NCBI GenBank assembly: GCA_020721225.1 | Contig: DYNE01000024.1 | Span: 1-35,503, forward strand | DNA from: Pelodictyon luteolum | GTDB lineage: Bacteria; Bacteroidota; Chlorobiia; Chlorobiales; Chlorobiaceae | Length of the DNA: 35,503 bases | Reading direction: 5' to 3' | Shown: piece by piece, positions 34,017-35,503 of the stretch | How the letters are laid out: each line of letters opens with the position of its first letter | Position numbering within the stretch: the stretch's first letter is position 1 | Program-made: the position numbers and the translations under genes | The notes under the pieces: generated by a model | The model's input: only the letters and a program-made list of their open reading frames with translations | The model's database searches: none | What the model was told of the DNA's origin: nothing

Positions 34017-34354
34017 ATGAAAACGAAGCTGATTTTTACAGGCACCATTTTGCTTGCAGGCATCACTTCAAGCCCTGCACTTGCCGCTGATTCATTGTAC
34101 ATCAGCGGCAATATCGGCATCTCCCAGTTCAGTGACATTGGCCAGACCCCGCAACACAGATCCAGCATGGCAGTATCTCTACCGAATCAGGTCTGTATGT
34201 TACGGGTGCGTTCGGCAAGCATTTCGACAGTTTCAGGATCGATGAGGAATTCGGTTATCAGAGAAACGATGCGTACAAGATATCCATGCATGGAATGGAG
34301 CCCTTCCGTCATTCAGAACGTCTAACTCCTCTCCTCCCCAAACTTGGCACGTAG
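34017..34354 (+). pseudogene. Frameshifted, truncated outer-membrane beta-barrel gene
   Basis: From ATG 34017 the frame gives a signal peptide and barrel start: 'MKTKLIFTGTILLAGITSSP' then 'ALAADSLYISGNIGISQFSDIGQTP'. The barrel text then continues in another frame from about 34151: 'ATQIQHGSISTESGLYVTGA' and 'FGKHFDSFRIDEEFGYQRND', ending at TAG 34352-34354. One base missing in the CCCCG run at 34147-34151 explains the switch. The sum is about 110 residues, roughly half a usual porin-like small barrel (about 190-220), so the 3' half is also lost. It could be a sequencing error plus a truncated gene. Confidence 0.75.
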
Positions 34355-34618: not shown

Positions 34619-35452
34619 ATGAGGCTTTCGGATTACATAAAGAAATGCATTCGGGAGGGAACCCAGATTTCACGGTTCAACGTGACCTGGGGGGTATTGC
34701 TTGCCGCGCCTGGACATATTTTCTTTTATCTGCTTCTCAAGTATGGTTTTAAGATGCCGTACGAAAATTTTCCATTGCGCTTTTCTGCCACTCTTATTGC
34801 ATTGTTCTCCTTTGTTCTTGTCAGGATGGAATCACCCCTTGCAAGGAAGTATTTTCCGTTTTATTGGCATTTTTCGCTTATCTACATTCTTCCTTTCCTG
34901 TTCACCCTGTTTCTGCTGAAGAACGATTTCCATGAACTCTGGCTCTACTGGGAGATTTTCATGGTCTTTATTCTGATTGCTTTTGTGCCCAACTGGCTGA
35001 TGCTGCTTTTTGATCTGTTTGTTGGAGTGATTGCAGGAATTGCATTCTACGTTCTGACTACTCCGGAGATCAGCCTGAATCCTGACTTTGATATTCCCGC
35101 CTATCTGACCGTTCTGATCTTTTCAGTTATTGCAGGTTATCTTTTCAGTTACAGCAACAGACGGGGACAGGTGGCCATGGAAAAAAATTCCGCATTTCAG
35201 GCTCTGGCCGGCAGTATAGCACATGAAATGCGCAATCCGCTGAATCAGGTCAGCCTCAACCTCGATATCATAGAAAGGAAGCTCCCGATATTCAAGCATC
35301 AGGACTCGCCATCAGCCGATATACAGGCATTGGATACTCTCTATCAGCATGTTGCATGGTGCCGGATTGCGATAAAACGGGGCACACAGATCATCGCCAT
35401 GATTCTCGATGAGGTCAGGGAAAAGCCTATCGATAAGAGCAGTTTTACTTAG
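34619..35452 (+). pseudogene. Truncated CqsS/LqsS-type sensor histidine kinase
   Basis: The start at ATG 34619 has AAGGGAAG seven bases upstream. The 277-residue product has six membrane spans (about 22-42, 52-70, 85-100, 108-123, 125-146, 161-178). It then has a dimerisation helix with phosphoacceptor His202 in 'GSIAHEMRNPLNQVSLNLDI'. The order and text, for example 'SFVLVRMESPLARKYFPFYW', match Vibrio CqsS along its sensor half as I remember it. Such kinases detect alpha-hydroxyketone autoinducers. The protein stops at TAG 35450-35452 right after 'REKPIDKSSFT', before any ATP-binding (N, G1, G2) boxes, so it cannot autophosphorylate. The gene is cut where the putative IS end begins. Confidence 0.8.
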
Positions 35453-35503
35453 GGCTTGCTGAATAATAGATAAGTATTACTAATATAAGGATATAACAGG
35501 AAT
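35451..35503. mobile_element. Putative insertion-sequence end
   Basis: The kinase reading frame is interrupted at AGGGCTTGCTGAATAATAG, which resembles the GGCTTGCTGAATAA-type terminal repeats of some insertion sequences. The following 50 bases are very AT-rich, have no continuation of the kinase in any frame, and run to the window edge. The far end, transposase and target duplication cannot be seen. Confidence 0.45.

Follow-up and report, generated by a model that had tools for sequence, protein, structure and literature searches.

The 35,503-nucleotide stretch analyzed here (the window) is the entire contig C76 of a draft assembly of 144 contigs, and it ends inside a histidine kinase gene. 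This gene very likely encodes an orphan paralogue of CqsS, the receptor for alpha-hydroxyketones, and was split by a recent insertion. The broken gene as such is ordinary; the orphan class to which it belongs is the interesting part. The features at the right end of the window are as follows.

34619..35452, + strand: 5′ half of the putative orphan CqsS-like hybrid histidine kinase, sensor and DHp domain (translation; ATG start, 277 codons and stop)
34673..35158, + strand: six-transmembrane sensor, residues 19-180 (AlphaFold helices; profile alignment to Vibrionaceae CqsS sensors)
34940..34942, + strand: Trp108, at the place of W104 in V. cholerae CqsS (kept in all 82 sensors of the first alignment)
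34949..34951, + strand: Trp111, at position 107 of V. cholerae CqsS (Trp throughout the class of this kinase, whereas all 75 cqsA-linked receptors have Ser)
35120..35122, + strand: Phe168, equivalent to V. cholerae CqsS F162, a head-group contact (conserved in 81/82; role from PMC3376566)
35159..35419, + strand: signalling helix and DHp domain, residues 181-267 (HisKA match, AlphaFold)
35222-35224, + strand: phosphoacceptor His202 in the HEMRNP box (HisKA match, AlphaFold)
35446..35451, + strand: 6-bp target-site duplication TACTTA, left copy (the right one occupies bases 54-59 of contig C73)
35450..35452, + strand: TAG stop made by the insertion (T and A from the target duplication; the element begins with the G at 35452)
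35452..35503, unstranded: 52 bases from the left end of a mobile element present in several copies, GGGCTTGCTGAATAATAG..., continuing into the contig end

Just upstream of the kinase, a short frame (34019-34325) has a signal-peptide-like start (MKTKLIFTGTILLAGITSSPALAA...) and resembles a broken gene for a secreted or outer-membrane protein.

The window frame carries the DHp box IAHEMRNP and gave a HisKA domain match (8e-6). In the AlphaFold model (77 sequences; pLDDT 85.6), six membrane-length helices (residues 19-43, 51-69, 73-101, 106-122, 126-147, and 159 onward) and a two-helix DHp domain were predicted. An HMM was trained only on Vibrionaceae CqsS sensors encoded beside cqsA, the cqsA loci being taken from one scan of named genomes. 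It matched the window sensor with E = 8e-16 for 1e5 sequences, and the sole listed decoy among shuffled and reversed sequences had E = 560. The hhalign comparison with the Vibrionaceae CqsS sensors gave a probability of 99.6 over 190 columns. LuxN, the best NCBIfam match, was set aside because it covers the DHp domain only. No relative of the sensor was found in the PDB, where profile matches fell only in the DHp domain, and Foldseek with the sensor returned no significant matches. A preliminary description of this DNA had proposed a CqsS/LqsS-type six-span sensor and a HEMRNP box; the HMM match and the six predicted helices bear out the sensor, and the box is present with its His at residue 202.

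By itself, the window frame has neither a HATPase nor a receiver domain. Since the window stops at a contig end, the far side had to be sought on another contig. A search with part of a paralogue placed the rest of the kinase at the beginning of contig C73, where it is still open and in frame. Joined at the protein level, the C76 and C73 parts form a stop-free frame of 699 aa containing HisKA, HATPase_c and two Response_reg domains; the HEMRNP-type DHp domain, the HATPase and a receiver are thus united in one protein. The nearest relative of both parts is the same kinase of a Chlorobium MAG (G015), which they match over adjoining stretches (75% and 67%; a separate search gave 77% identity between the window frame and G015:C7). 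The joined protein is 70% identical to it, unbroken across the junction. An intact form of the split kinase, of 707 aa, exists in this other Chlorobium. Two other contigs were ruled out as parts of the window gene: C103 falls among the cqsA-type receptors (66% to the linked CqsS of G015), and C52 has a sensor of its own that is 95% identical to an intact G035 kinase.

The left end of the element in the window also starts contigs C74 and C82 in reverse reading. Its right end, C73 bases 1-53, was found again on C90, C49, C140, C56 and C13. The assembly holds three left and six right ends, with the inverted-repeat termini GGGCTTGCTGAA and GGTTTTGCTGAA. At three left/right flank pairs, identical 6-bp duplications were found (C76/C73, TACTTA; C74/C56, TATTTC; C82/C13, TAATTA). 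Multiple copies with fixed ends, inverted-repeat termini and a target duplication are features that this element shares with insertion sequences. The junction, read from contig ends of the draft assembly, is a mobile-element insertion between the DHp and ATP-binding domains, with 6 bp duplicated. The IS-like junction, the stop codon supplied by it (TA of the target and G of the element), a short target duplication and a kinase completed beyond the element had all been anticipated in the preliminary description, and each was found as described above.

The break could instead be an assembly artefact, with the gene intact and the break reflecting a graph end at a repeat, or an insertion in part of a mixed population. 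The assembly is a draft, and both gene halves lie at contig ends. However, an artefact would not create duplications, and these match at the flank-element junctions of three separate sites. We regard this explanation as barely credible.

A search of this assembly with the transposase of G021, whose element has about 20 terminal bases in common with this one, did not find the transposase expected beyond the junction. The interior of the element is missing from the assembly, and thus the transposase is likewise missing. The element end gave no match to plasmids. Elements sharing the terminal GGGCTTGCTGAATAATAG were observed in G021 (L258, 158-1794) and G017 (L259). The G021 element encodes a DDE_Tnp_1_2 transposase and is inserted after the same flank as the G017 element.

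As it stands, the gene encodes a sensor-DHp stub, which should not autophosphorylate because it has no ATP-binding domain. The 277-aa stub might have been selected as a functional truncated receptor, either a decoy or ligand sink or a dominant-negative dimer partner of intact paralogues. The entire sensor and DHp domain are kept in frame, CqsS anchors dimerise (PMC4821796), and two uncut paralogues (on C67 and C116) are present. In contrast, the stop arose by chance where gene and element meet, and the remainder of the kinase beyond the element has stayed open and in frame; the insertion therefore looks recent and unselected. A selected stub is highly unlikely, and the decoy receptor raised in the preliminary description found no evidence in its favour. 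Loss of the whole system, another outcome raised there, does not follow from the break alone, since two uncut members of the receptor family are kept.

The same genome has a synthase gene. An intact cqsA was found at C11:424-1659 (NF005526, 628 bits against a cut-off of 428), and its product matched the solved V. cholerae CqsA with E = 1e-119. Among the 61 family genomes sampled, 22 including this one carry cqsA. Alpha-hydroxyketone systems in Chlorobiaceae, as implied by the preliminary description, were not new. Homologues of cqsA/cqsS in this family are reported in PMC5289986, with reference to earlier work, and in PMC10158934; for the Prosthecochloris locus, the latter paper describes mobile elements and loss of cqsA as well. 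Moreover, the window kinase is not the cqsA-linked CqsS. The cqsA gene on C11 does not adjoin C76 or C73, and in G015 the orthologue and cqsA are on different contigs. The window kinase is an orphan paralogue, with Trp in place of Ser at selector position 107, and not the partner of cqsA.

Upstream of cqsA, the C11 DNA matches that of the nearest named relative, whose CqsA is 90% identical, no further than about C11 base 131, and the match ends about 110 bases before the relative's divergent cqsS frame. No close counterpart of the receptor encoded by that cqsS was found in the assembly. From these alignments, the receptor neighbouring cqsA (C11:1-423 side) seems to have been lost or displaced.

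Other CqsS-like receptor genes of this genome are also cut. C103 encodes a cqsA-type kinase without its sensor and begins at a different element-like end (C103:1-65, TGTACACTATACTCCGAAAT...). On C52, the sensor is cut at a third element-like end (C52:42430-42471, AGGGCACCTCTATTTATTATGG...), with uncut relatives 82-95% identical; the AGGGCACCTCTATTTATTATGG sequence also ends contig C74. The C116 type and C103 additionally have an Hpt domain. Three of the five receptor genes are cut against 0.63 expected (p = 0.026, post hoc), which is weakly above the expectation for this many contigs, and we do not claim clustering of insertions. Since three receptor genes are cut and cqsA is intact, receptor genes are being broken while the synthase remains.

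Four Rickettsiales/Alphaproteobacteria MAG contigs (L160-L163) encode a CqsA that shares 55-57% identity with the Chlorobium protein; on three of them, a 700-aa CqsS-like kinase of the Ser107 type lies next to it. One of these contigs is titled Rickettsia typhi although it is a MAG, and it may be mislabelled.

To place the residues that select the ligand, we positioned the six residues of the V. cholerae mutant work via V. mimicus, and all six letters matched the published numbering (PMC3376566). In the window sensor, W104 and F162 are kept, and S107 is replaced by Trp. W104 and S107 govern the head-group choice at ligand C3 (PMC3376566).

CqsS-like receptors (E <= 1e-20) occur in 36 of the 61 family genomes, often several per genome. 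The sensor survey contained 139 distinct sensors, and the selector positions were readable in 135. Position 107, the head-group selector in V. cholerae numbering, is Ser in all 75 receptors whose genes adjoin cqsA. Among the 60 unlinked receptors it is Trp in 37, Ser in 12, Cys in six and Ala in five (Trp, Ala or Cys in 48/60), these counts being phylogenetically non-independent through descent. In this genome, the window kinase and the C67 and C52 receptors have Trp, and the C116 receptor has Ala. In a sensor tree without an established root, the Trp receptors fall in one well-supported clade, with Ser lineages nested within it. One nested Ser lineage consists of Chlorobaculum receptors beside cqsA, and these four are the only members of the clade beside cqsA. 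Among 200 sensor columns, 107 is the sole one that is fixed in all linked receptors, including the nested four, and absent from all Trp-type receptors; the next-best separating column is G23 (94% vs 14%). The Trp-type orphan class was not described in the partial coverage of our literature search, and it is apparently undescribed.

These patterns lead us to infer a different ligand for the Trp class, or another way of sensing the same one. Because Trp stands at the selector where every cqsA-linked receptor has Ser, the class is probably specific for another head group or for a foreign signal, and not for the CqsA product of its own cell. In its fullest form, the proposal is that the Trp107 class is tuned to a signal other than the own CqsA product, such as a foreign or undescribed lipophilic molecule, that the residue reverted to Ser when one of these receptors was paired with cqsA in Chlorobaculum, and that position 107 is a single-residue switch between own and other signals. 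We put this forward tentatively, as having somewhat less than an even chance of being correct.

The pattern at position 107 might also be a matter of inheritance only, Trp marking one paralogue clade with no bearing on the ligand. The Trp sequences are mostly in one clade, and the counts are not independent. However, Ser occurs inside the Trp clade, including its only four members beside cqsA, and 107 alone among the 200 columns separates completely. Thus, we consider inheritance alone improbable.

A further explanation concerns the genomes in which the receptors occur. All 13 Chlorobium genomes with a Trp-type receptor have cqsA (p = 2e-7, descent ignored); this speaks for a connection with the self-made signal and against a changed ligand. 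The Trp107 class would then respond to the same CqsA product in an accessory role, like LqsT, which responds to the self-made signal LAI-1 in Legionella (PMC5289986). The residue would tune affinity only, and the insertion would have removed one of several redundant inputs. Conservation of W104 and F162 is also consistent with this. On the other side stand Ser107 in 75/75 cqsA-linked receptors, Ser again where a Trp-clade receptor adjoins cqsA, and 14 Chlorobaculum genomes that have a Trp-type receptor and in which cqsA was not found. An accessory role is quite conceivable, although we lean against it.

In Chlorobaculum, genes for CqsS-like receptor kinases were observed in tandem, two or three to an array (G030:C24, L213; G004:C6, L217; G006:C82, L218). 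The arrays mix Trp107 and Ser107 types, and cqsA was not detected in these genomes.

Under the preferred reading of an orphan receptor class with a changed ligand, intact members would act like CqsS: a lipophilic ligand in the six-helix bundle would shift the kinase/phosphatase output, and the altered autophosphorylation would be relayed through the receiver. The Trp107 class would recognise a head group other than that of the CqsA product. In the window gene, a multicopy element landed between the DHp and ATP-binding domains, duplicating TACTTA. One membrane-embedded residue tracks receptor-synthase pairing in Vibrionaceae as well as in green sulfur bacteria and has apparently reversed in Chlorobaculum, and the truncated gene may serve as a natural test of receptor specificity. 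It thereby becomes possible to ask by direct experiment which signals are heard by orphan receptors of the alpha-hydroxyketone type, in phototrophs with little-studied signalling.

Compared with Vibrio CqsS, the CAI-1 receptor kinase, this kinase shares the six-span sensor, N98, W104, F162, the IAHEMRNP box, the HATPase, a C-terminal receiver and a size of about 690-700 aa. It differs in that it is not beside cqsA, has Trp for Ser at 107 and Leu/Ala for Phe at 160/166, has two receivers whereas V. mimicus CqsS has one, and in this copy is split by an insertion. Legionella LqsT is likewise an orphan paralogue without a linked synthase. The gatekeepers of Legionella LqsS (I/F/A) resemble those of the Trp class (L/F/A here), but LqsS has Ser at the 107-equivalent (S114) and no W104 (PMC3376566). 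Prosthecochloris and Chlorobium have a cqsA/cqsS pair (PMC10158934, PMC5289986) of the same family and in the same bacterial group, for which mobile elements at the locus and loss of cqsA have been reported. In that pair the receptor is linked to its synthase, whereas the window kinase belongs to a separate, unlinked paralogue class.
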